Positions 1-12,905 of a stretch of DNA of 20,200 bases are shown piece after piece. The stretch is from the IMG/VR virus record IMGVR_UViG_3300033571_008319, positions 1 through 20,200 of that record. The stretch is one strand, 5' to 3'. Source of the stretch: a virus. Positions within the stretch are counted from its first letter, which is position 1, and each line of letters starts with the position of its first letter. The notes under the pieces were generated by a model, which made no database searches, was not told the origin of the DNA, and was given only the letters and a program-made list of their open reading frames with translations. Position numbers and translations under genes: made by a program.

Positions 1-3000
1 CGCCACGTACAGTAGATATAGTAAATTGTGTACTGTTAGCAATACTAGTAACAAAATACGTAGTATCTTCAAACCTTACACCGCCAAATATTTCAGCACC
101 GGTAGAATCGCGTTGGAATATTAATCTATCGTTAACGTTGAGATCGGCTGTACCTGAACTAGTAGTTAACAAGTTAGTATCTAGTACAAAATTATTGCTC
201 TGCGCTGCCGCTGAACCAGCTGTGGCTAATACTACATTTCGACTATTTCCATATGCAGCCGCAAACCAGTTGCCTGTAGTGGTCAATGCTGGACCTTCTA
301 TCCATGTAACACCGTTAGTAGAATATGCAGTTCTGGTGCTGTTATAAGCAAATGCTGTAAATGCGCCGCCGCCATAAATTACTTTGTTCCAACGTGCTGC
401 TACGCCTGGCATAGTTGCCGCTAGCCATGTTGTACCATTGGTACTGTATGCTGCTGCGGTACTAGCAGTTGCGGTATTGCCGGATACTGCAACAAATCTA
501 CTATCACCATATGCTACTGAACTCCAAAGTTGCGCACTTGGGAAGCCCGTTGCGTTAGCAGTCCAAGTAATACCGTCTAGTGAGAATGCACTTACTTGGC
601 TTGCTGAAGTTAGTCCTGATGTGATTACAAAGCGATTAACACCGCTGATTGAACCGTTCGCTATGCTGGTATACTCACTAGCAGCAGCAGAGATTGTACC
701 GTTAGTCCATGTAACACCGTCTGTACTGTATGCAGTTCTGTTAGCACTGGCACTGATTGCTACAAATCTAGTTCCGTTGTTGGCTATATCACTCCACTGA
801 GATGCTGATCCCGGAATAGCATTAACTGTTCCTGCCCATGTAACGCCATCTGATGATGTACTTACATGACGAGTGTTAGTTAGAATTGCAACATATGTTG
901 TACCGTTATAGGATAGTGCAGTGTATTCATACTGTCCACTTACTACTCCAAGTGTTACTGGAGACCAGCTTTCGCCAGTTGTACTTGATGCTGCAACTGC
1001 GGCCCCAACTGCACCGTTATCATGGCCGATCGCTACAAATTTTGTACCAGTCCAGATAACATCGGTCCAATATGAAGATGTTGGCAATGTTCTTGCTACA
1101 TATCCCGCATTGGTGTCTTTAGCTGTTACTGTGATATCAATTGGTTGATAAATGCTGCTTCTAGAAGTCCAAGTTACGCCGTCTGGTGAAGTAGCTGAAA
1201 ATTCACCGTATGACATTGCGTTAAATACGCCTTGTCCGTAATCAACTGTAGACCATTCAGCAGTGGTTGGCATATTGCTTCTGGTAAATGTTATACCATC
1301 AAGGCTATATGCTGCCATTGCCGAACTATCGGAAATTGCAACAAATCGGTTGTTACCATATGCAATATCTACCCAGTTAGATTCTGTAGAATCGTTGTTA
1401 GATGGTAATGTTCCCACAGTCCATACACTGCCATTAACAGAGTATGCAAAGCTGTTTGAGAAGTTGCCTTCAACTAGAACAAACTTTCCGCCACCGTAGG
1501 CAATTGCTTTTGCACCTGTAGCAACAGTATTGAACGTCCATGTTGTACCACCGTTGGTGCTAACAGCTCTAAATGCTAAACTAGAATCACTTTCAGCAAT
1601 AGCAACAAATGTGCCATTACCATAAGCGATATCACACCAATCAACGGTATCTCCCATGTTGGCCAAATTCCAGTTTAATCCGTTTGTAGACCATGCTGCC
1701 TGTGATGATTCTCTGGCTACTGCTACAAAATATCCGACATTTGAAACAACACCGTAAGCAATTGCCGACCACCGAGTAGCTGATCCAGGTAGTGTAATGT
1801 CGGTCCAGTCAATTCCGTTGGACGAAACTGCTCCTGTTAGTGAGTCGCTTGCTACTGCTACAAATCTTGGAGTAACTGCATTTCCAACATGAGTAAATGT
1901 TACAATACCGCCACTTGGACTTGTTACTGAAGAAATTGTAATTATCAAATCATTAGCAGGACTTGTTCCGCCTAGACTTGTACCTGCTATAGTTAATGTT
2001 TGACCTGCTGCATACAATGTGCCGCCCGCATACAATTCAACGGTATACACACCATCTATTCTGGATACATCAAACGATGCAAATGATCCTGTTCCGCCAG
2101 TTGCGCTAACCTGTGCATAAGAACCACGACCGTTGCCCCAAACAACATCTGACCAGGCTCTTGATGCTGGCATATTTGCCTTGGCTTGAGTATAATTAGG
2201 TGCTGTAAATGTAATTCTAGGAGTAATCGAGTAAGTTGTAGTTACGTCAGGAGCAACAATAGTTGTTCCTGCTACTACATGATCCCAACCAGCTGTTCCT
2301 GTTGACTCTCTAAAAACTGTGGCAATTTTACTTGCAGAGTTATATGTTGCAATATATCCGTATTGTCCTGCTCCAAGGCCTGCTGTTAAGTATATGCTCA
2401 TCCCAACGTATACATCGCTTCCTTGAATATCAGAAGCTGCAAGTGTTATGGAAGTTGTGCTACCTGCCTGGCCTTGATTGCCGGCAGTGATATATCCAAC
2501 TCCACCTGTTCCGCTGCTATCGCCTGGATCAGTTAGTCGAACATTAAATACGCCGCCGTCTCTAGTTTCGTCACCTAGTGTGCTAACTCCAGATCCTGCA
2601 CCTGCAATATTAAATGTTGCTGAGGTATATGTAGAACCAGCATTGCCAAATTCTAACAATAGTACTCTAGTACCGTCTGTGATAACATCCACAATATCTG
2701 CTTCTGTATTTCTATTATTAATTTGACCAGTTATTGGGGTTTCAGTAACGTCAACACCTTCAGCAATAGCACCGTATGTACCATAACTGTTGTTACCGTT
2801 AGTAGCACGAATCTTACCGCCATTCTCAGCTAGATAACCAATGTAGTTATAGTATGAGAACACAGAAACAAGTTCTGCACGACCCAAGTTAGTAATCCAT
2901 GCACCAATACCGTCACTCAATACTTGTGTAAAGTCGTTGGAAACAATAGAGTCGTTGCCGCCGCTGTGTAAGCTACCGTCAATTTTTTGTCCGACACAAC

Positions 3001-6000
3001 CAATACCAAATGTTGTTACGTTTTGCACATATGTAGATCTTGTTGTAACCCATGTACGATTGTCATTAGGTCCCCAACCTGGATCTAACGATACATACGC
3101 ACCTGCACGTGGTCGCTGTGTTCCAAATTCGTTGGCTGGTAATAATGCAGACTGTTGTGCTGTTAAGTTACCGTCACTGGATCCATCTAGGCCTGTCAAT
3201 GTCATGTTACGAGCACCGCAACCGTTTCTAACCAAGAACATATTTTCTAATTTAGAACCAGTTAATGCATTTCTGTAATACTTAGCAGCATATGTAGATG
3301 CGTAGTTGCCAACATATATCATGTCACGTACAATTGCATCAATTGTTTCTCTAACATCGCGTTGGCATTTTGCAGAATCGTAACTGTAAATCACAGTCAT
3401 TGTTCCTGAAGCAGTAGTTAGATTTTTTACTGCTCCGCCAAGCGTATCAGCTATAGTAAATTCTGTACCGCTAATTACCTGTTTAACAAAGTAGTCAGTA
3501 CCGGTCGCAACACCACCAAATGTTGTACCAACAAATCTAATCTTGTCGCCAGCAACCATCCACGATGTACTTGAAGTTGTAAATTGATCAGTAGTTGTTG
3601 TAGCTGCCGTAACTGTTGAGTTATTAGTTAAATCGGTGTAAGCAGTTGATTCTGCAACTAAAAATTCTTTATTAAGTTCAAGAATCCTTGCACCGTTAAT
3701 TAGATTTAAATTAATGTCAGGTGTGTTTGTTCCAATTATTAGTGGAGAAGTACCAGTGTTAACATATGCAATCAAGTCAGTCCAGATTAGATCAACAAGT
3801 GCTTGAGCACCGCTGGCTGCAATGAACGACGCTTTCTTAGATATAAAATCTAAAATAGTCTGTGTTGCTGCTAATTGGTCAGCTACAACTAATTGTGCAG
3901 AACTGGTGCCTCTTCTGTATGCTAGGCCTGCTTTAACAGAAGCAAAGTTGCTGTTAAATGCTAGGTCGTAACCTAATGCGTCAACAATATATCCAACGTC
4001 TCTACTACAAGTAGTATAATTAAAACTCAATACTGGGAATTCACGCTTAATATATTCTACAGCATCACTTTGAATTGTTGATCTAGCAGATACTAATCTT
4101 GTTCTAGCAGTTTGTAATTCGGTAGATACCCAAGATAAACTTGGAGCAATCAATGCTGGTAATGTGCCATTGTTAGTTAGCGTGTCAATAACATCCTGCA
4201 TTCTAGCAGATCCAAAAGTTGCAGATCCTGCAGATCCAGGTGTACCAGCTGTATTCTGAGTTGTTGTGTTGCTAGGAGTGCGAGTAATTGCAGTCTCTAA
4301 AATAACAGAGTTCACAATAGTCTTCATGTGTGTATACGCTGCAAGCGTAACAGCACCTTCGCCTACTCCATATGTTCCTACTCCGTATGAGAAATATGCA
4401 TCAGCAGCTACTCTAGTCTGATAGTTTCCACCATATGTTAAATCATATTTCAATGCATCAATAATGTGTCCAACGTCTCTTTCGCATGTTGCAGAGTTAT
4501 AATCAAACTGTACAATGGTAGAGAATGAAGCAGTTGTTAGTGGAACAGCATCAATTGTATTACGTGTTGCACCTACAGTGAATTTAGTTCCGCTGATAAT
4601 ACTTTGAACGTAGTATGTAACCCCTGCTAAAACACCGCCGTTGCTGGCCGCAAATCTAATAGGCATGTTAACTGCCATCCAGCTTGTGGATGAAGTGGTC
4701 ATTGAGTTATCAACTGCACTTGAAGCCGTAACTGTCTTGCTGTAGTTGTCAAAGATCCAACCGGTAATTTCAGCTTTAATAAACGCGGTGTTAGCAGTTA
4801 ATTGTGCTCTAGCATCGCCGTAGCCAATTAGATAAGAAACATTATATCCTGTAGGGTCTGGAGTGCTGAATGCATCAGCTGCTGCTTCACCGTTCGTTAG
4901 GATATCTTTAATTTCAGCTGTCAACGCTGTTACTCTAGAAACTGCTGTAGTGCTTCCAGCGTCACCTTCGTTCTGGCTAGTTCTATTCTGAGTTTCTGTG
5001 TTTCCTGAGCTCGGAGTTACTGCTGCGTTGATCACAATATTTTGTGATACTGTTTTTAATCGCTGATAAGCAGCTACTGATTTAGCTTTGTCATTGTCTG
5101 CAATAATTTTTGCAGCTGGAGAAATACGTGAACCACGTAATTCGTCACCAACAACTGCTGTAAGAGAAGGTACAATGATAGGCAATACTTCGTAGTACTG
5201 ACCTGTTTTAACATTCAGTGTGTACGTTGGCGAATCTAACGTTGGTAAACCAGTTAAATTGCCTGCTGTAATTGCACTGGTTACAATACTTGCTAGCGTT
5301 GTAGCAGTTTCAAATGTTCCCGTTTCAGCTGTGTAGGCGATAGAAGTAATTTGAAGAATTCTGTTCGCCAGTATAATGCCATTAGCACCTTGATAGTTTA
5401 CAGAAGGTGCTGTTTGTGCTAGAACACTACCTATTAAACTTACACCGTAGTTAATGGACGCTACAGTTTCGTCTTCTTGACCAGTAACATAAGATATTCC
5501 CAATGCTGTAAAGTATCTTTGCGCTGCTTCAATTGCTCTACTGTTACCAGTGTGTGTTAAGTCATATGCAATAGCATCAACAAGTAGACCCATATCGCGC
5601 TGACATGTCTCTTTATTATAGGTGAAAGAAGTTGTAAATGGTGCTATATTATTGGCTATTTGATAATCAGTCCATTCGACAATTTCTTTCTGAATGAACG
5701 TTCTGTTTTGTGCCAGTAACCAACCAGCATCTTGATTTTGATAACCTTTTTCAATTTGATCACAAGCATATCTAACACTTGCCCATGGTTGATCAATTGT
5801 TAATCCGTAAGTTGGTGCTGGGCTGTTAACACCGTGAGGTGCTACATAGAACACTTTAGCAACACGGCCCCAATATTCCCATGCAGGTAAATTATCAGCA
5901 CTAACTGTAAGAACCTGTCCAGTATCGCCAATTGGCAATCTTGTAGGGCCTGCTCCACCGTAAATAACCAAGTCACCCGGTGTAGTTAATACGCTTTCTT

Positions 6001-7309
6001 CGTTTCCTGCAGCAAGTAAATTCCAGTAAATTCCGCCAATATCGTTATCTGGTCTATCAGCTCCTGTTGAAGAAGTATGAGCTTGTATAACAATATAACT
6101 GTTTGGGCCATATTTTGCAGCGTCGCCAAGTTTATATGCTCTAGCACTAACCCAATTGCCTCTCCACTGAATACCTTGATTCAATAGTGACCAAAATGTT
6201 GCATTTGGAGGAGATTGATTTGTGTTATTTGCAACAGCTACATAAGTATAACCGTTTAATCTAACAACTTCACCAATTTTAAATGCGGTACTTGAATTCC
6301 AATCACCAAAGAATTTAAATCCTTCAGTGAATAAATCATAATTTGTACTGTCTAACGAAGGAGCACTGCTAGAAAGGTGAGTAGTTTTAGCAATGTACGA
6401 GTTACCGCCGTATTTGACAATGTCGCCGTGTTGATAAACTGTAGCAGTTACCCAATCATTCTCATACTCGATACCTTCCACGAACTGCGACCAGTTTGTC
6501 TGGTCAGTTACAAAGCTAGTAGTCTGTGTATGAGCCGTAGTACAAATCCATGTACCCGATCCATATTTAACAACGTCGTTGATTTTGTATCTTACTGCTC
6601 CGGCAGTAGTCCATGTGCCTTTATATTCAAACCCTTGATTGTAGTAATCCCATTTGGCTTGATCAGCTTCGAGTCCTAGTGCTGTTGTTAATGCCGAAGT
6701 ATGGTGTAGATTACAAACATATGTTGTACCACCGTACTTGACAATATCACCAACTTTAAATCTTGTGTTCGTAGTCCAATTGCCTTTCCAATCAACGCCA
6801 ACAGAGAACTCATCCCATTTAGCTTGGTCGGCTTCAAGTCCTAGTGTTGTTGTTAGTGCTGAAGTATGAGCTTGTGTACATAGATAAACGTGGCCGCCAT
6901 ATTTAACTAGGTCGTTTATTTTGTAAGTTGTGTTAGTACCCCAGTTAGCTGTCCAGTTGAAAGACTCTGCCAACAGTTCCCATTTAGCTTGATCGGCTTC
7001 TAGTGTTAGTCCTGAAGTATGACCAGTGATAGCAATATATAAAAGGCCACCATATTTTACTATGTCGTTGACTTTATAAGTAAAGCCATCGTCCCAGTCA
7101 CCTTTCCAATCCTGTCCATCTGAGAACTGATTCCACTTGCTTGGAATGTTATTTAGATCGGTATAAAAATTTGCCGCTGCGGAGTGTCCTACTACGCATA
7201 GGAAAGTTTTTCCGCCGTATGAAACAACGTCATCTTTATAATATGTGGTTGAAGTGATCCAGTCACTTTTCCATACAAACCTGATTCTACCTAATTTAAA
7301 TTCGGCCAT
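1..7309 (-). CDS. Giant modular tail-fibre/adhesin-like virion protein A (C-terminus beyond window)
   Basis: The frame runs open from ATG at 7309 to the left edge: 2436 codons, no stop, so the C-terminus is missing. The start is backed by a Shine-Dalgarno (GGAG, with AAGGA just before it) and a late promoter box at 7331-7338. Order of domains: eight Trp/Tyr-rich repeats (residues ~9-435, e.g. YKINDLVKYGGHVYLC), resembling CBM5/12-type carbohydrate-binding repeats; a VFYVAPHGVN segment (~484-496); four copies of a C.RDVG..(V/I)DA..YDL.YGGN module (~560-1350); a beta-helix-like core (NMFLVRNG, YVQNVTTFGIGCVG, SNDFTQVLSDGIGAW); and about thirteen BNR/Ycf48-like blades (~1713-2380; WSTVDYGQGVF, YSTDGVTWT). 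It is a paralogue of the adjacent 1851-aa protein. The motifs are familiar from structural proteins of T4-like cyanophages. Inferred role: receptor-binding or surface adhesion on the tail or baseplate. The exact virion position is not shown by the sequence. Confidence 0.85.
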   Translation of the reverse strand, partial: MAEFKLGRIRFVWKSDWITSTTYYKDDVVSYGGKTFLCVVGHSAAANFYTDLNNIPSKWNQFSDGQDWKGDWDDGFTYKVNDIVKYGGLLYIAITGHTSGLTLEADQAKWELLAESFNWTANWGTNTTYKINDLVKYGGHVYLCTQAHTSALTTTLGLEADQAKWDEFSVGVDWKGNWTTNTRFKVGDIVKYGGTTYVCNLHHTSALTTALGLEADQAKWDYYNQGFEYKGTWTTAGAVRYKINDVVKYGSGTWICTTAHTQTTSFVTDQTNWSQFVEGIEYENDWVTATVYQHGDIVKYGGNSYIAKTTHLSSSAPSLDSTNYDLFTEGFKFFGDWNSSTAFKIGEVVRLNGYTYVAVANNTNQSPPNATFWSLLNQGIQWRGNWVSARAYKLGDAAKYGPNSYIVIQAHTSSTGADRPDNDIGGIYWNLLAAGNEESVLTTPGDLVIYGGAGPTRLPIGDTGQVLTVSADNLPAWEYWGRVAKVFYVAPHGVNSPAPTYGLTIDQPWASVRYACDQIEKGYQNQDAGWLLAQNRTFIQKEIVEWTDYQIANNIAPFTTSFTYNKETCQRDMGLLVDAIAYDLTHTGNSRAIEAAQRYFTALGISYVTGQEDETVASINYGVSLIGSVLAQTAPSVNYQGANGIILANRILQITSIAYTAETGTFETATTLASIVTSAITAGNLTGLPTLDSPTYTLNVKTGQYYEVLPIIVPSLTAVVGDELRGSRISPAAKIIADNDKAKSVAAYQRLKTVSQNIVINAAVTPSSGNTETQNRTSQNEGDAGSTTAVSRVTALTAEIKDILTNGEAAADAFSTPDPTGYNVSYLIGYGDARAQLTANTAFIKAEITGWIFDNYSKTVTASSAVDNSMTTSSTSWMAVNMPIRFAASNGGVLAGVTYYVQSIISGTKFTVGATRNTIDAVPLTTASFSTIVQFDYNSATCERDVGHIIDALKYDLTYGGNYQTRVAADAYFSYGVGTYGVGEGAVTLAAYTHMKTIVNSVILETAITRTPSNTTTQNTAGTPGSAGSATFGSARMQDVIDTLTNNGTLPALIAPSLSWVSTELQTARTRLVSARSTIQSDAVEYIKREFPVLSFNYTTCSRDVGYIVDALGYDLAFNSNFASVKAGLAYRRGTSSAQLVVADQLAATQTILDFISKKASFIAASGAQALVDLIWTDLIAYVNTGTSPLIIGTNTPDINLNLINGARILELNKEFLVAESTAYTDLTNNSTVTAATTTTDQFTTSSTSWMVAGDKIRFVGTTFGGVATGTDYFVKQVISGTEFTIADTLGGAVKNLTTASGTMTVIYSYDSAKCQRDVRETIDAIVRDMIYVGNYASTYAAKYYRNALTGSKLENMFLVRNGCGARNMTLTGLDGSSDGNLTAQQSALLPANEFGTQRPRAGAYVSLDPGWGPNDNRTWVTTRSTYVQNVTTFGIGCVGQKIDGSLHSGGNDSIVSNDFTQVLSDGIGAWITNLGRAELVSVFSYYNYIGYLAENGGKIRATNGNNSYGTYGAIAEGVDVTETPITGQINNRNTEADIVDVITDGTRVLLLEFGNAGSTYTSATFNIAGAGSGVSTLGDETRDGGVFNVRLTDPGDSSGTGGVGYITAGNQGQAGSTTSITLAASDIQGSDVYVGMSIYLTAGLGAGQYGYIATYNSASKIATVFRESTGTAGWDHVVAGTTIVAPDVTTTYSITPRITFTAPNYTQAKANMPASRAWSDVVWGNGRGSYAQVSATGGTGSFASFDVSRIDGVYTVELYAGGTLYAAGQTLTIAGTSLGGTSPANDLIITISSVTSPSGGIVTFTHVGNAVTPRFVAVASDSLTGAVSSNGIDWTDITLPGSATRWSAIAYGVVSNVGYFVAVARESSQAAWSTNGLNWNLANMGDTVDWCDIAYGNGTFVAIAESDSSLAFRAVSTNGGTTWTFNTVATGAKAIAYGGGKFVLVEGNFSNSFAYSVNGSVWTVGTLPSNNDSTESNWVDIAYGNNRFVAISDSSAMAAYSLDGITFTRSNMPTTAEWSTVDYGQGVFNAMSYGEFSATSPDGVTWTSRSSIYQPIDITVTAKDTNAGYVARTLPTSSYWTDVIWTGTKFVAIGHDNGAVGAAVAASSTTGESWSPVTLGVVSGQYEYTALSYNGTTYVAILTNTRHVSTSSDGVTWAGTVNAIPGSASQWSDIANNGTRFVAISASANRTAYSTDGVTWTNGTISAAASEYTSIANGSISGVNRFVITSGLTSASQVSAFSLDGITWTANATGFPSAQLWSSVAYGDSRFVAVSGNTATASTAAAYSTNGTTWLAATMPGVAARWNKVIYGGGAFTAFAYNSTRTAYSTNGVTWIEGPALTTTGNWFAAAYGNSRNVVLATAGSAAAQSNNFVLDTNLLTTSSGTADLNVNDRLIFQRDSTGAEIFGGVRFEDTTYFVTSIANSTQFTISTVRG
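175..2173 (-). repeat. About thirteen BNR/Ycf48-like beta-propeller blade repeats in giant protein A
   Basis: Units of about 40-45 residues follow the pattern W..(I/V)AYGNG.FVA(V/I)......A.ST(N/D)G.(T/N)W....(M/L)P. Examples are WCDIAYGNGTFVAIAESDS, YSLDGITFTRSNMP and WSSVAYGDSRFVAVSGN. I count thirteen, with a linker of about 20 residues after the sixth, which would suit two propellers. The pattern is that of BNR/sialidase-like and Ycf48-type repeats; these folds commonly bind proteins or glycans. Blade count and fold are inference from the repeats. Confidence 0.75.
1868..2128 (-). other. Domain of about 87 residues inserted inside the first propeller blade of protein A
   Basis: The canonical blade core YGNG-RFVAVA is split here. 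VVWGNG (2146-2131) is followed by a Gly-rich domain (VSATGGTGSFASFDVSR, then YTVELYAGGTLYAAGQTLTI and GTSLGG), and the blade resumes at RFVAVASDS (from 1867). The inserted unit looks like a free-standing beta domain seen elsewhere in phage fibre proteins. The paralogous 1851-aa protein lacks it at the equivalent place. Confidence 0.6.
3264..5632 (-). repeat. Four dispersed C-RDVG/YDL-YGGN modules in giant protein A
   Basis: Approximate copies lie at 5508-5632 (CQRDMGLLVDAIAYDLTHTGN), 4391-4507 (CERDVGHIIDALKYDLTYGG), 3901-4026 (CSRDVGYIVDALGYDLAFN) and 3264-3390 (CQRDVRETIDAIVRDMIYVG). They are helical-looking units of about 40 residues, separated by 120-370 residues of other sequence. The 1851-aa paralogue has one degenerate copy (INALIDAVIYDLRYTGNY). 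The function of the unit is unknown to me; it recurs in structural proteins of T4-like cyanophages. Confidence 0.7.
6003..7285 (-). repeat. Eight tandem Trp/Tyr-rich (CBM-like) repeats in giant protein A
   Basis: Each unit is about 50-55 residues with the pattern W..W....Y..(G/N)D(I/V)VKYGG..Y.C..(A/G)HTS, then a Trp near the end (DQAKW or similar). Three consecutive units (cores near 6652, 6817 and 6982) share the same LEADQAKW ending and are spaced exactly 165 nt apart. This indicates recent tandem duplication. The pattern resembles chitin/carbohydrate-binding module 5/12 repeats, so glycan binding is the inferred role. No catalytic residues are visible. Confidence 0.75.
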
Positions 7310-7349: not shown

Positions 7350-10300
7350 TCACACTCCGCTTGACAAGAACATTGAATGGGTTAACCAATCACCGTCTAT
7401 GCCGCCTTTAAAGTTTACTTTTGCTGTAAAAATTGTTTCTTCACCAGTTACGTTTTCAATTGTATCTGGACCAATTTTAGTTACACCTGCAGTAAGAGAT
7501 CCTGTAATAGCATCTGCTCCACCACCTGAAACTCTTCTAGTTATATACGCCTTAATAGCTGCTTGTGTTGATATAATATTGTTTGAGTCAGCTACCATTA
7601 ATGAATCTGTTGAAAATTCTCTAATAACAACTCCTGACCCGCCAACAGTAACTCCGCCTAACGTTAGTTCTTCTAGACCTTGTAGTTCAAAGAACTGTGC
7701 ATTTAGTGTAACTGTTCCTGTGCTCTGTTCTACAGCAAATAACTCACCTACTCGGAAGTTACCGTCCTGGTCAGTTGATGTGTAGAACACACGACCACCT
7801 TCTTTTTCTTGAACTTCTTGCTCTGGTGATACAATAGTTCCTATTGGATTTAGTACATCCGGATAATTAGTTTGTTCAAAATTACCTAGGCCAATGTCTA
7901 AGAAGTCGTGTCCTGTCAATCGAACCTGACTATATAACTGCCTAATCTGTATTGCTTCGTCATGCTCAGGAGATTCGCCCCTATTAATATCTTTAGCAAC
8001 AGAAATTCTTGCGGTTACATTCGGGAAAGTTCCGGATAAAATAGTAACTGCTAACAGCTTGTACGTGTAGTCGTTGATGCTTGCAAATCTTAAGTTATCG
8101 CCTGGACCAGGCAGTCTACTTAAATTGTTAATAATTAAATCACTTCCAAGGTGATACTGATCTTTGTATCCGTCGCCTATTATTGTTGCAGAAGTACTGG
8201 TAGTTGCCCATCCTGTACCTGCATTAAGAATAGTTGGGCTAGCCAATACTCCGTTTCCGATTCTAGCCAGTGTTGCTACTTCAGAGCTATTATTAGGATC
8301 TGTTATTGACATGATTGGGGAAGAACTATATCCGCTTCCTGGCTCCCATATGTTAAATTCGCTAATTCTACCGGATACTACCGTTGCTCTAGCTTTGGTG
8401 GTAACACCTGTATTAATAATTCTAGCTGAGGTTGAGTTAACTGATGATCCTGATATTGCAACAAATTTGCCAGGTAAAGAAGATACTCCCGGTGCAAATA
8501 CTACTCCGGCCCATGTTGCTGAAGTTCCAATATTTTGTGTTGTCCAGTTTACGCCGTCATCTGAGGTTGCACATACATTTGTTCCGCTAGCAACTGCAAC
8601 AAACAAACCTTGTCCGTAAGTAACTTGTTGCCAATTAAGTGTAGACGGTAGTGTCCCTGTTATCCAGGTTATTCCGTCGAAACTAATTGCAGTTGCTATT
8701 GATAAAGCAGTTCCTCCAGCAATTGCAACATATCGGCCATTGCCGTATGTTACGCTGATGGCTCCTATACCTGTACTGCCGGCAGTCCAGTTAGTTCCGT
8801 CAGTGCTGTATACCGTATCAACTATTGACGAATCGCTTAGTGCCACAGCAACAAATTTACCTTTGCCGTATGTAATAGAATTCCAGTCTGCACCTTCTGG
8901 TAGTGCTGCTGAAGTCCAGCTTACTCCGCCGTTAGTTGATCTTGCATACGTTGCACTGCCGCTAGGAACGGCTATCCAAACACTATTTCCATAAGCAACA
9001 TCTCGATATTCAAGACCAAGCGGCATTGTCATTGCTGACCAAGTTACACCGTTGTCTGTTGATCGTGCAGCTTCACCGTCTGCACCGAATATCATAAGAA
9101 CGCCACCTACAAATTTAATTTTGTTCCAGTTCGCTGTCTCTGGGAGGCCGGCTAGTTGACTCCACGCTTCTCCATTAGTTGACACTCCAACATAGTTAAT
9201 ATCTAACGCTGATGCAAAAAACTTGTCAGCGGATCTTGTAATAGATGTCCACTGTTTGTTTGCAGGCAAAGCTGCTGCGGTAGTGGTAAAACCAGGACTA
9301 GTAAAGCTAACTCTAGGTTCAACATAATATACTGTTGTGCCATCAAGTGTACTTTCGATTGGTGTTCCTGGAATAACATTTTCCCATCCTAAAAAGTGGA
9401 TAGTCATATTGCTCAGGGCATTACTTCCATTAATTAAGAAATACACAGGATCAAGGTCGCTACCGTCTAAGCTAAGTGTAATAACATTACTGCCCAATGA
9501 TTTAATATAATAGACCGTTAGTGGTTGTATGTTTCCAAATTGTGAATCGTCTGTAGATGAAAATATTACAGGATCTCCTACCTTTACTGATTCGGGAGGA
9601 CTTGAATTTAATGTTACGGTATTTCCAGAAGAACTAGTACTCAACACTGTTATACTCGGTGTTGACTCTGTTGCTACGTATGCATATTTTCCAGCATCAT
9701 CAAAGTCTGCAACATAACCGTATTGACCAACTCCTAGGCCTGCACTTATATATACTCGCATTCCAATGTATACATCACGTTCGGCAGAGTCTGAGCCGGC
9801 TAGTTGAATTGATCTAGAATTTCCGCTTTGTGCAGAATTAGTTGTAAATGTATAACCAGCGCCGCCTGCATTTGAAGAGTCACCTGGGTCAGTAATTCTA
9901 ACTTCATATGTGCCGCCGTCTCTAAATTCGTCAACTAGTATGGACGCATTAATGCCTGCACCTGCCAGTGTCATTGTTGCCTGTGTATAGGTTGTGCCGG
10001 CATTACTAAAGAAAAATTTCTTTATCTGTCCGTTACTGCACAGTACTTGTGAAACGTCGGCTTCGTAATATCGATTATTTACAGTAGCCGTTATTGGATT
10101 TTCGCCTGCGCTTGAACCAATTGAGATCGCTCCAAATTTTCCATATGAACAGTTTCCGTTGGTACCTCGAATTTTTCCGCCAGCAGTACACAGATAGCCA
10201 ATATGATTATAGTAAGTAAAGACTGATACTGCTTCTGATCGGCCTGCACTATTACACCATATTCCAATGCCGTCACTTAAAATTTGTGTAAAATCATTAC

Positions 10301-12905
10301 ATACAATTGTTTGATTACCGCCAGCGTGTAAATCTCCGTCAACTTTTAGTCCAACACATCCGGTACCAAAGGTTGTTACGTTTTGCACATACGGTGATTT
10401 AGTCCCTACCCATGCTGTAGTGTCGCCTACTCCCCATCCTGGATCTAAACTTGCGTAGGCGCCCGCAGTTGGACGTTGATATACATATTCTATTTGTGTT
10501 TGCGCTGGAGTTAATGTACCAGATAATCCTCTAAGCGTCATGTTTCGTAAACCGGTACCATCACGCAACAAAAACATATTTTGTATTTTATTTCTATTAT
10601 ATGAGTTTGCATTTATAAAATATGTTGCAAGTTCGTATGTTTTATAATTTCCAGTATATCGTAGATCGTAAATTACTGCATCGATTAGTGCGTTAATATC
10701 TTGATTCCATCTTGCTGGCGGCACAAATGCTGCTGTGGTTTCAAGATATAGTGTAACTTCATTAAGAATAAAAGATTTATTATTAACTAGTTGTGCCGCG
10801 GCATTTAGTTTAAATGTTTCTGCAGTTACGTTATTTGTGCTAGTTGGTGTTTGCGAATTAAATGTAGTAATTCTACTTTCAAATAGTTCCAATAATGATT
10901 TAATAGCTAACACTTCACCGGGTGATGCAGCAGATCCGGAAAAGTCTTGTGGTACAGTTCCATATAAAACAGTAGTTGGATCTACTGGATCATCTGCACC
11001 AACTTGAATTTCTTGTATGATAAATCCTGCAATATCTTGTATGTATGCAGATGCCGATGACAGCGTATTTAAATAAGCTGTGGATAACACTTGATTTGCA
11101 GGAGCTACTACAGTACTACGTAATTCGTCTCCTACGATTCCTACAAATGCAGGAATACGTATTGGTAATATTTCTTCAAACACGCCAGTTCTAACAAATA
11201 TAGTTGCCGGTGATCTAGTTGCTTGGTCAGCAAGGATATAATCACATGCATATCGTATGGTTCTAAATGTAGCGTTAGGAGAACCACCTTGAGTTTCTTC
11301 GTCTACACCTGTGAGAGAAACATAGTATACTCGATTGCTTTGATTAAGATCAATCCAGCTTGCGTTATTTGTGCTAGATGCTACAACAGCTTGTCCTACA
11401 TTACCCACTGAGATATTAGTAAATCCTACAGTACTACCGTCTTCATCTAGACCAAATGTTCTTAGATCTCCACGATTTCTCAATCTATTAACTGCTGATC
11501 CTTCAGTAATTTTGATCCAATATCTGCCAGTTAATGTGCTGTCGCCTGCGCCAGCTTCAGTTCCCATCCCAATTAACGGATCATCGTCTGGTCTATTTGT
11601 AGCATCTGATACATGTTTATCAACGCACTTGAATGTACTGGATATCCAAAGCACTGTGTCGCCGGTAATATAGGTAACGTCAGTGTCCCAGATACCTCTC
11701 CATCGTGTTCCAGTAATAATTAATTGCCAGTATGTTGAGTTAGTAGAGCTACCATCTTCTGCGGTGTCTGGATCTACAAATGTATTTTTAAGTATAGCAA
11801 CATACAAGTTGCCTCCACGTCTAACCACATCTCCTGGTCGGTATTGAATGGCACTAGTCCACTCTCCACGCATTCTACTATTTTCAAACAGCAGCGTCCA
11901 TGCACTATTAACTCCGGGTTCGACTCCCGGAGTTAATGCTGATCCAAATATATCCTCTGTTGTTGCATATATGTTTCCGCCGTACCTAACAATATCTCCC
12001 TTGTTGTACTGAACCAGCGGGCTCCATGCTGTTTCAAATTCAACACCAGGAGAATATATTTCCCACTGAGTGGAGTTGAAAAATGTACCCGATACTTCTA
12101 AAACATTATTCTTTTTGTAAATATATCCGCCAAATTTTATAATATCATTTGGATAATATAATGTCGTTGCCTGCCAATCACCGCGATATTGTATGCCGTC
12201 ATAAATTAATACCCAGTTGGCTATATCGTAAGGTATGCCTTCTTCTATATTTTGTGTTGACACGTGACCGATAGTACAGCGATAAACTCTACCATTATAT
12301 TTGACAAAGTCATTGGTTTTATATAGTGTTGATGTTTGCCAATTTCCGGTCCAGTTATCTGAAATACTAACAACGTCCCAGTTGGCAATACTTGATTCTA
12401 ATGTAGGATTATCGCCGCCTGCAGAAAGGTGTGGAAGATTGCATCGATATACTCTGCCGCCAAATCTAACAACGTCATTTAGTTTGTAGTAGGTGACAGG
12501 TAACCAAGTTGAAAACCAAGTCTCTGTAGAAATTAACACAGTCCAGTGTGTAAGTTCTTCATAAAATCCGCTGACTAACGCTGACGACGTATGTGGTGCT
12601 GTACAAATATAAGAAATTCCGCTGTATTTGGCAATATCACCAATAACGTAGTCATACTCTGTTTGCCAATCGCCGGTCCAACGTGCGGAAGTAACCATTA
12701 ATTGCCATCTAGGAATCGCTAACGGTGGTATGTCTCCATTAATTGCATTTAGATCTGAGTAGAAATCGGTGTTTGAAGTATGTGAAGTAAGGCATACATA
12801 TACCAATGCTCCAAAATTAACAATATCGTCTGGATTGTATTTTGTGATAGACGACCACTCGCCTCTCCAGGTACACTTAAATCTACTTAATTTAAAATCA
12901 GCCAT
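7350..12905 (-). CDS. Giant modular tail-fibre/adhesin-like virion protein B (1851 aa)
   Basis: The complete gene starts at ATG 12905 with a rather distant GAGGA and ends with TGA. N-terminus: eight Trp/Tyr repeats (residues ~10-475; e.g. YNKGDIVRYGGNIYA), resembling carbohydrate-binding modules. Next come VYYVSLTGVDEET, GDELRSTVVAP and a beta-helix-like core (NMFLLRDGTGLRNMTLRGL, YVQNVTTFGTGCVGLKVDG, CNDFTQILSDGIGIW). Seven BNR/Ycf48-like blades follow (~1211-1500; WQQVTYGQGLFVAVASG). The C-terminus holds GRVFYTSTDQDGNFRVGELF and a LQGLEELTLGG segment, typical of structural proteins in T4-like cyanophages. It shares its N-terminal plan with the giant downstream (MADFKLSRF against MAEFKLGRI). 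Inferred role: late virion protein in the distal tail or baseplate acting in host-surface recognition. The propeller resembles the cyanobacterial Ycf48 assembly factor, but the protein is clearly a virion component. Confidence 0.9.
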   Translation of the reverse strand: MADFKLSRFKCTWRGEWSSITKYNPDDIVNFGALVYVCLTSHTSNTDFYSDLNAINGDIPPLAIPRWQLMVTSARWTGDWQTEYDYVIGDIAKYSGISYICTAPHTSSALVSGFYEELTHWTVLISTETWFSTWLPVTYYKLNDVVRFGGRVYRCNLPHLSAGGDNPTLESSIANWDVVSISDNWTGNWQTSTLYKTNDFVKYNGRVYRCTIGHVSTQNIEEGIPYDIANWVLIYDGIQYRGDWQATTLYYPNDIIKFGGYIYKKNNVLEVSGTFFNSTQWEIYSPGVEFETAWSPLVQYNKGDIVRYGGNIYATTEDIFGSALTPGVEPGVNSAWTLLFENSRMRGEWTSAIQYRPGDVVRRGGNLYVAILKNTFVDPDTAEDGSSTNSTYWQLIITGTRWRGIWDTDVTYITGDTVLWISSTFKCVDKHVSDATNRPDDDPLIGMGTEAGAGDSTLTGRYWIKITEGSAVNRLRNRGDLRTFGLDEDGSTVGFTNISVGNVGQAVVASSTNNASWIDLNQSNRVYYVSLTGVDEETQGGSPNATFRTIRYACDYILADQATRSPATIFVRTGVFEEILPIRIPAFVGIVGDELRSTVVAPANQVLSTAYLNTLSSASAYIQDIAGFIIQEIQVGADDPVDPTTVLYGTVPQDFSGSAASPGEVLAIKSLLELFESRITTFNSQTPTSTNNVTAETFKLNAAAQLVNNKSFILNEVTLYLETTAAFVPPARWNQDINALIDAVIYDLRYTGNYKTYELATYFINANSYNRNKIQNMFLLRDGTGLRNMTLRGLSGTLTPAQTQIEYVYQRPTAGAYASLDPGWGVGDTTAWVGTKSPYVQNVTTFGTGCVGLKVDGDLHAGGNQTIVCNDFTQILSDGIGIWCNSAGRSEAVSVFTYYNHIGYLCTAGGKIRGTNGNCSYGKFGAISIGSSAGENPITATVNNRYYEADVSQVLCSNGQIKKFFFSNAGTTYTQATMTLAGAGINASILVDEFRDGGTYEVRITDPGDSSNAGGAGYTFTTNSAQSGNSRSIQLAGSDSAERDVYIGMRVYISAGLGVGQYGYVADFDDAGKYAYVATESTPSITVLSTSSSGNTVTLNSSPPESVKVGDPVIFSSTDDSQFGNIQPLTVYYIKSLGSNVITLSLDGSDLDPVYFLINGSNALSNMTIHFLGWENVIPGTPIESTLDGTTVYYVEPRVSFTSPGFTTTAAALPANKQWTSITRSADKFFASALDINYVGVSTNGEAWSQLAGLPETANWNKIKFVGGVLMIFGADGEAARSTDNGVTWSAMTMPLGLEYRDVAYGNSVWIAVPSGSATYARSTNGGVSWTSAALPEGADWNSITYGKGKFVAVALSDSSIVDTVYSTDGTNWTAGSTGIGAISVTYGNGRYVAIAGGTALSIATAISFDGITWITGTLPSTLNWQQVTYGQGLFVAVASGTNVCATSDDGVNWTTQNIGTSATWAGVVFAPGVSSLPGKFVAISGSSVNSTSARIINTGVTTKARATVVSGRISEFNIWEPGSGYSSSPIMSITDPNNSSEVATLARIGNGVLASPTILNAGTGWATTSTSATIIGDGYKDQYHLGSDLIINNLSRLPGPGDNLRFASINDYTYKLLAVTILSGTFPNVTARISVAKDINRGESPEHDEAIQIRQLYSQVRLTGHDFLDIGLGNFEQTNYPDVLNPIGTIVSPEQEVQEKEGGRVFYTSTDQDGNFRVGELFAVEQSTGTVTLNAQFFELQGLEELTLGGVTVGGSGVVIREFSTDSLMVADSNNIISTQAAIKAYITRRVSGGGADAITGSLTAGVTKIGPDTIENVTGEETIFTAKVNFKGGIDGDWLTHSMFLSSGV
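8404..9275 (-). repeat. Seven BNR/Ycf48-like propeller blades in giant protein B
   Basis: There are seven units, each near 40 residues: starting at WTSITRSADKFFA, WNKIKFVGGVL, YRDVAYGNSVWIAV, WNSITYGKGKFVAVA, ISVTYGNGRYVAIAGG, WQQVTYGQGLFVAVASG and WAGVVFAPG. Each but the last ends in an (S/T).(D/N)G..W element. Seven is the usual blade number of Ycf48/Hcf136-type propellers, so one closed propeller is the natural reading. Confidence 0.75.
9390..9660 (-). other. Inserted GD-V-F/YY module in giant protein B
   Basis: Alignment by eye with the paralogue shows the shared order TEST-(gap)-GW(E/D). In protein B about 90 residues are inserted there, with the pattern VKVGDPVIFSS...LTVYYIKSLGSNVITLSL. 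The same kind of module occurs at other positions in protein A (about 4505-4735, 3395-3625 and 1-180), so it appears to be a movable domain. Confidence 0.5.
11505..12878 (-). repeat. Eight Trp/Tyr-rich (CBM-like) repeats in giant protein B
   Basis: The eight units, of about 50-70 residues, share W.G.W.....Y..(G/N)D(I/V)V(K/R)(Y/F)GG..Y.C and a closing Trp. They are more diverged from one another than the corresponding repeats of the downstream giant and show no recent DNA-level duplication. The carbohydrate-binding assignment is by resemblance to CBM5/12 repeats. Confidence 0.7.
11907..11937. repeat. Perfect 12-bp inverted repeat shaped like a tRNA acceptor/T-arm minihelix
   Basis: On the plus strand the order is ATTAACT (7), CCGGG (5), TTCGACT (7-nt loop), CCCGG (5), AGTTAAT (7), with all 12 pairs perfect. 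The 7+5 stem and the TTCGACT loop match a tRNA acceptor stem plus TΨC arm. There is no D-arm, anticodon arm or CCA, so it is not a tRNA gene. It lies inside the 1851-aa gene, where the minus strand encodes ALTPGVEPGVN (residues 323-333) in a loop of the sixth N-terminal repeat. Confidence 0.85.

Follow-up and report, generated by a model that had tools for sequence, protein, structure and literature searches.

Fraser et al. (2006) reportedly described promiscuous Ig-like domains in the structural proteins of phages. In beta-propellers of the Asp-box type, the turns carry an S-x-D-x-G-x-x-W-like motif, and the A-B and C-D turns lie on one face. In a paper on the phage protein Hoc (PMC10385173), Hoc appears as strings of Ig-like domains arranged end to end, and Ig-like additions are thought to aid attachment in the environment. 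Mosaicism of receptor-binding proteins, with fragments common to tail fibres, spikes, and baseplate proteins, was reported by Smug et al. 2023 (PMC10684548); its main text does not contain the words "nested" or "propeller", and its domain-level part rests on known ECOD domains, whereas none of the libraries searched here holds a family specific to the domain under study. The tail fibre of cyanophage Pam3 has been solved, and the paper on it (PMC9608196) uses neither "propeller" nor "insertion". The domain described below resembles the promiscuous Ig-like domains and Hoc in that small beta domains are added to many virion proteins, but it differs from the end-to-end strings of Hoc in being nested inside another domain. 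It also differs from Ig-like domains in having no clear Ig family by sequence and no significant match in the PDB. In behaviour, the promiscuous Ig-like domains and the Hoc strings are its nearest counterparts.

The window analysed is linear, is 20,200 bases long, and comes from a virus record of IMG/VR. Both of its large paralogous genes matched phrog_9851 (tail fibre protein) strongly, and CBM_5_12 repeats were found in eight stretches of ORF1 and seven of ORF2. Four of the nine other minus-strand ORFs scanned had PHROG family matches, and for two of these four the matches were weak and pointed to wedge or virion structural proteins. The window was also scanned for tandem repeats and tRNAs, and none were found. 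The features relevant to the nested domain are the following.

2-7309, minus strand: ORF1, 2436 residues, open at the left end of the window, a large fibre-like virion protein
7350-12905, minus strand: ORF2, 1851 residues, paralogue of ORF1 with one propeller
176-1123, minus strand: propeller 2 of ORF1, seven uninterrupted units (model residues 523-838)
1154-2161, minus strand: propeller 1 of ORF1, with unit 1 of its six repeats interrupted, the units being read from the sequence and the predicted strands
2198-2458, minus strand: upstream domain (TTSITLAASD...ITPRITFTAP), the anchor for comparing first blades across phages
2129-2161, minus strand: strand A of blade 1 (RAWSDVVWGNG), the part before the insertion, ORF1 residues 1717-1727
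1868-2128, minus strand: nested GGTGS-type domain, 87 codons, ORF1 residues 1728-1814
1778-1867, minus strand: remainder of blade 1, strands B-D, including the Asp-box-like SSNGIDW, ORF1 residues 1815-1844
9138-9257, minus strand: first blade of ORF2 used for comparison, uninterrupted and degenerate

The propeller units of ORF1 are four-stranded with S-x-D-x-G-x-x-W-like turns, as in Asp-box type beta-propellers, and the best structural match of propeller 2 was virginiamycin B lyase 2z2o_D (Z 31.4, rmsd 2.5, 285 aligned, identity 11%). With respect to window positions 1109-1160, propeller 1 of ORF1 comprises six units and the single-propeller relatives L062 and L094 add a partial seventh; the closing unit of the tandem propellers in ORF1 may be shared or lost.

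The preliminary description of this DNA, made from the sequence alone, held that the 87-residue segment sits exactly inside one propeller blade and that both halves of the blade remain intact. In ORF1 the segment is flanked by RAWSDVVWGNG and RFVAVASDSLTGAVSSNGIDW. We scored blade 1 against a profile built from the 11 other ORF1 units, with unit 1 excluded. When the segment was removed at its exact boundaries, the blade matched in one piece over profile positions 3-38 at 44.8 bits, and the repeat of the neighbouring units was matched across all four strands. With the same profile, the score dropped to 31.0 and 29.0 bits when the cut was shifted by -3 and +3 residues and to 24.9 and 19.5 bits at shifts of -5 and +5, and with the segment kept in the blade was recovered only as two partial matches (6.0 and 22.0 bits). 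The loss of score at shifted cuts and the split but intact matches place the cut at the boundaries originally proposed and show that the interrupted unit is indeed a blade with both halves preserved. The insertion site is the A-B turn, between strands A and B. An outer or top loop had been suggested; by the convention given above, the A-B hairpin shares its face with the Asp-box turns between C and D and is not an outer edge. The nested domain would then be carried on a propeller face, close to where the upstream domain joins. The uninterrupted blade said to occupy the matching place in the paralogue does exist, but it scored only 8.5 bits, and this degenerate unit is a weak control. Better comparisons came from relatives lacking the domain: the first blade of L188 is uninterrupted, scores 40.9 bits, and follows the same upstream domain, and that of L186 is nearly identical to it and likewise uninterrupted. 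The possibility that the segment packs as a regular part of the preceding domain was rejected on the basis of the boundary test, its separate predicted fold, and the occurrence of its family in other proteins, and simple growth of the hairpin was rejected on the same three grounds.

An AlphaFold2 model of ORF1 residues 1541-2400, made with 45 sequences, predicted the segment in place (model residues 188-274) as a distinct domain with a pLDDT of 94-95. Its predicted strands span model residues 189-195, 205-211, 214-221, 231-234, 248-255, and 262-269 with a short helix at 236-239, and those of blade 1 span 178-185 (A) and 275-281, 285-289, and 294-299 (B-D). When the segment was modelled alone with 101 sequences, the same elements in the same strand order were predicted at a pLDDT of 97.8 and a pTM of 0.87. 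The models thus bear out the earlier proposal of a separate domain and point to a self-contained unit of six strands and one short helix that would fold separately. The long model has a pTM of 0.57, so the relative orientations of its domains are unreliable.

Neither Pfam nor NCBIfam gave a family match for the window copy. Among 101 copies of the domain, the commonest Pfam match was weak and was obtained for only four; two copies matched Pfam Fn3_arc (best E 0.0022), one matched NCBIfam Ig_like_ice (E 5e-4, the best Ig-like match), and none matched CBM_5_12 (PF02839), whose matches in ORF1 and ORF2 lie elsewhere in those proteins. Short stretches of two PHROG profiles were matched by many copies, 86 of 101 for phrog_32294 (baseplate wedge subunit) and 76 of 101 for phrog_6005 (virion structural protein). 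Each of these profiles holds the domain as one short stretch, and they represent whole-protein families of 2435 and 1512 positions, respectively, unlike a single nested domain. Searches of the PDB gave 23 Foldseek matches, none of them significant (best E 4.2), and none of 75 chains reached a Z of 2 or more with VIA-align; the best PDB sequence match of the module profile, Tenascin-R (E 0.011), was not believed. Predicted viral structures yielded seven matches at an E of 0.001 or better (query TM 0.79-0.89), six of them from uncultured tailed phages, so relatives exist among predicted phage proteins while no solved relative was found. The absence of a usable PDB match does not establish a new fold. 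A literature search, with most subscription papers outside its scope, returned no report of the nested domain or of nesting in phage propellers, and the family is probably undescribed.

The segment was searched on its own, and it was found in other phage virion proteins in several contexts, as the preliminary description had anticipated. A tblastn search located it in 49 phage records, nearly all of Synechococcus and Prochlorococcus phages, at features annotated as tail, short tail fibre, baseplate wedge, or virion structural protein. The surroundings were read in regions from nine of these 49 records. The cyanophage contexts include gp7-type wedge and short-fibre proteins, and in S-CAM1 and S-CAM3 the domain occurs in a tandem-like series. 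Among metagenomic loci, L074, L080, and L097 each carry two copies in the B-C loops of propeller blades, and with the copy removed each of these six blades scores 30-52 bits. At 12 loci (L029, L031, L067, L071, L072, L074, L076, L080, L100, L101, L103, and L106) the domain is found at the start of a CBM_5_12-like repeat, a context that could be an inter-repeat site instead of true nesting. It precedes an apparent helical domain, as read, in L074 and L101, forms tandem arrays in L075, L086, L087, and L091, and in L116 is the N-terminal domain of a reading frame of 305 residues that also has DUF4214. Species genomes contributed only three loci (L246, L247, and L248), all on metagenome-assembled contigs. 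The copy in L247, assigned to a Euryarchaeota assembly, clusters with those of S-CAM1 and S-CAM3, and this locus is probably a misbinned phage contig; L246 and L248 belong to an Alphaproteobacteria assembly. The presence of the same domain in other places of other phage surface proteins points to a reusable building block that is probably undescribed, and the finding is more general than first stated: a conserved plug-in domain is nested in the blade and is widely reused.

The history of the domain at blade 1 was followed in relatives of ORF1. All four full-length relatives of the first scan (57-91% identical) have it at the same site. First-blade regions were then counted as distinct regions sorted by the scan that found them, in sets that overlap. 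The upstream-domain scan gave 59 regions, 55 of them with the domain; the ORF1-propeller scans gave 26, of which 23 carry it; the ORF2-propeller scan gave 11, none with it; and the module scan, which is biased by design, gave 47, with the domain in 39. All scans combined gave 92 of 118, a total in which most loci were retained for their resemblance to ORF1 and one scan selected on the module itself. The four regions without the domain in the upstream-domain scan comprise L187 and L218, which have no propeller behind the upstream domain, and L186 and L188, which have a clean blade. L187 nevertheless has a copy of the nested domain, located within the upstream region and preceding SATNIANGGVFEV. 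A recent insertion was ruled out by the occurrence of the domain in all four full-length relatives and in divergent ones; the GC content of the module (42.1%) is like that of the following blades (43.4%). The description of the domain as foreign is therefore apt for its origin but not for its standing within the ORF1 family, where it is old and inherited and does not represent a fresh insertion.

Whether the blade-1 copies go back to one event or to independent insertions at a favoured site was judged from two trees. On a host tree of 66 rows, calculated with the module, L187, and L218 left out, presence and absence require at least four changes, compared with a mean of 16.0 for shuffled states, and none of 500 shuffles was as low. 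Strongly supported branches force two of the four changes, so more than one gain is possible, and L186 is placed among carriers with moderate support. The module alignment spanned 86 columns, and the module tree comprised 119 modules, of which 58 were blade-1 copies, after two long branches and L065_1334 (odd composition) had been dropped. Constraining the blade-1 copies to one clade gave a log-likelihood 7.23 above that of the free search (p-AU 0.574), and this better fit than the free tree found argues against repeated insertion, which we regard as unlikely despite the changes forced on the host tree. A single origin of the blade-1 copies is compatible with the trees, being not rejected but also not proven, and one old insertion followed by some losses is the simplest reading.

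The preliminary description raised the possibility that the inserted domain forms a binding tip, that is, a receptor- or glycan-binding element shown on the propeller. The surface position and the CBM_5_12 repeats of this fibre-like protein are in keeping with such a role, and in 11 chosen close pairs the dN of the domain exceeded that of blades 2-6 in eight. One pair, L145/L146, combines a strongly diverged domain with conserved flanks (59% versus 86% identity, the largest gap among the pairs compared). The drop in DNA identity between the two is not confined to the module, so that no sharp exchange breakpoints were seen, and the divergence possibly fits module exchange or selection for change. 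Against a binding tip, the dN of the domain was well below dS in all 11 close pairs, although dS was often saturated. Over 990 pairs of relatives, mean identity was 47% in the domain versus 45% in blades 2-6; among the 215 pairs with 25-35% blade identity the domain was better conserved than the blades in 204, and among the 37 pairs above 80% identity in only 7. Its strongest conservation falls largely on glycines and likely core positions, it is also present in wedge-annotated baseplate proteins where a receptor tip is less likely, and phages with an uninterrupted blade exist (L186 and L188). We conclude that the domain is under purifying selection, constrained, and somewhat faster over short times, without being a hypervariable tip, and a specific binding tip is unlikely.

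Purifying selection, a location in the first blade and thus immediately behind the upstream domain, and retention across divergent relatives are also what a structural brace would show, in which contacts with the upstream domain or a neighbouring chain hold the propeller in position on the shaft. Uninterrupted first blades nevertheless follow the same kind of upstream domain in L186, L188, L029, and ORF2, and the domain orientations of the long model (pTM 0.57) are too uncertain to indicate such contacts; this role is doubtful, yet it ranks ahead of the receptor tip. The least probable of the functional readings is that the domain is a functionless passenger, spread by recombination and kept because hairpin loops accept it. 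Its reuse in at least five contexts, the probable loss that left a clean blade, and a second module family nested in the same two genes would suit such a passenger, but long retention at one place under purifying selection would not. The best-supported guess for function is instead an accessory, laterally displayed module that most likely adds contact surface, rather than a specificity-determining receptor tip; its partner might be a neighbouring chain, the upstream domain, or, weakly, cell-surface material.

Overall, we consider it likely that the segment belongs to a self-folding phage family of approximately 85 residues that was inserted once in the A-B hairpin of blade 1, has been inherited since, and serves as an accessory plug-in. 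According to this account, tailed phages would reuse the family across virion proteins, the insertion in the ORF1 family would most likely have taken place long ago, and at least one probable later loss would have produced the blades of L186 and L188. Since the guest enters and exits through a short turn between neighbouring strands, the blade can still form around it. A broader proposal, which we put forward tentatively, is that this is an undescribed mobile domain of tailed phages, with no solved fold relative, that nests in unrelated virion domains and also grows in tandem, as one of several plug-in families; its nesting sites would include the A-B and B-C loops of propellers, CBM-like repeats, and helical domains.

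Other modules were noted in the same proteins. A second family (GGV..GTTYYV.SI..T.FT) has three copies in ORF1 and one in ORF2, as follows.

About 4562-4735, minus strand: second module, ORF1 residues about 859-916
3440-3616, minus strand: second module, ORF1 residues 1232-1290
5-202, minus strand: second module, ORF1 residues 2370-2435
9471-9650, minus strand: second module, ORF2 residues 1086-1145

The ORF2 copy interrupts the upstream domain, whose ORF1 counterpart is continuous, a mirror image of the nested blade domain, and the profile of this module gave 398 matches in the loci examined, with redundant copies counted. The long frame-3 ORF of L029 has, at residues about 1830-1910, a third kind of module (FTVASATGIVIGQLVVGTG...), nested between strands B and C of one of the later blades.

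Domain libraries lack the building blocks of the large fibre-like proteins found in uncultured phages, which makes these proteins difficult to annotate. A compact domain that is recognisable by sequence, confidently predicted, and nested in several host folds offers a handle on the evolutionary assembly of these proteins. It makes testable the idea that adhesins are built by nesting, beyond end-to-end joining, and it shows, in natural proteins, loops that can take up a guest of 85 residues.
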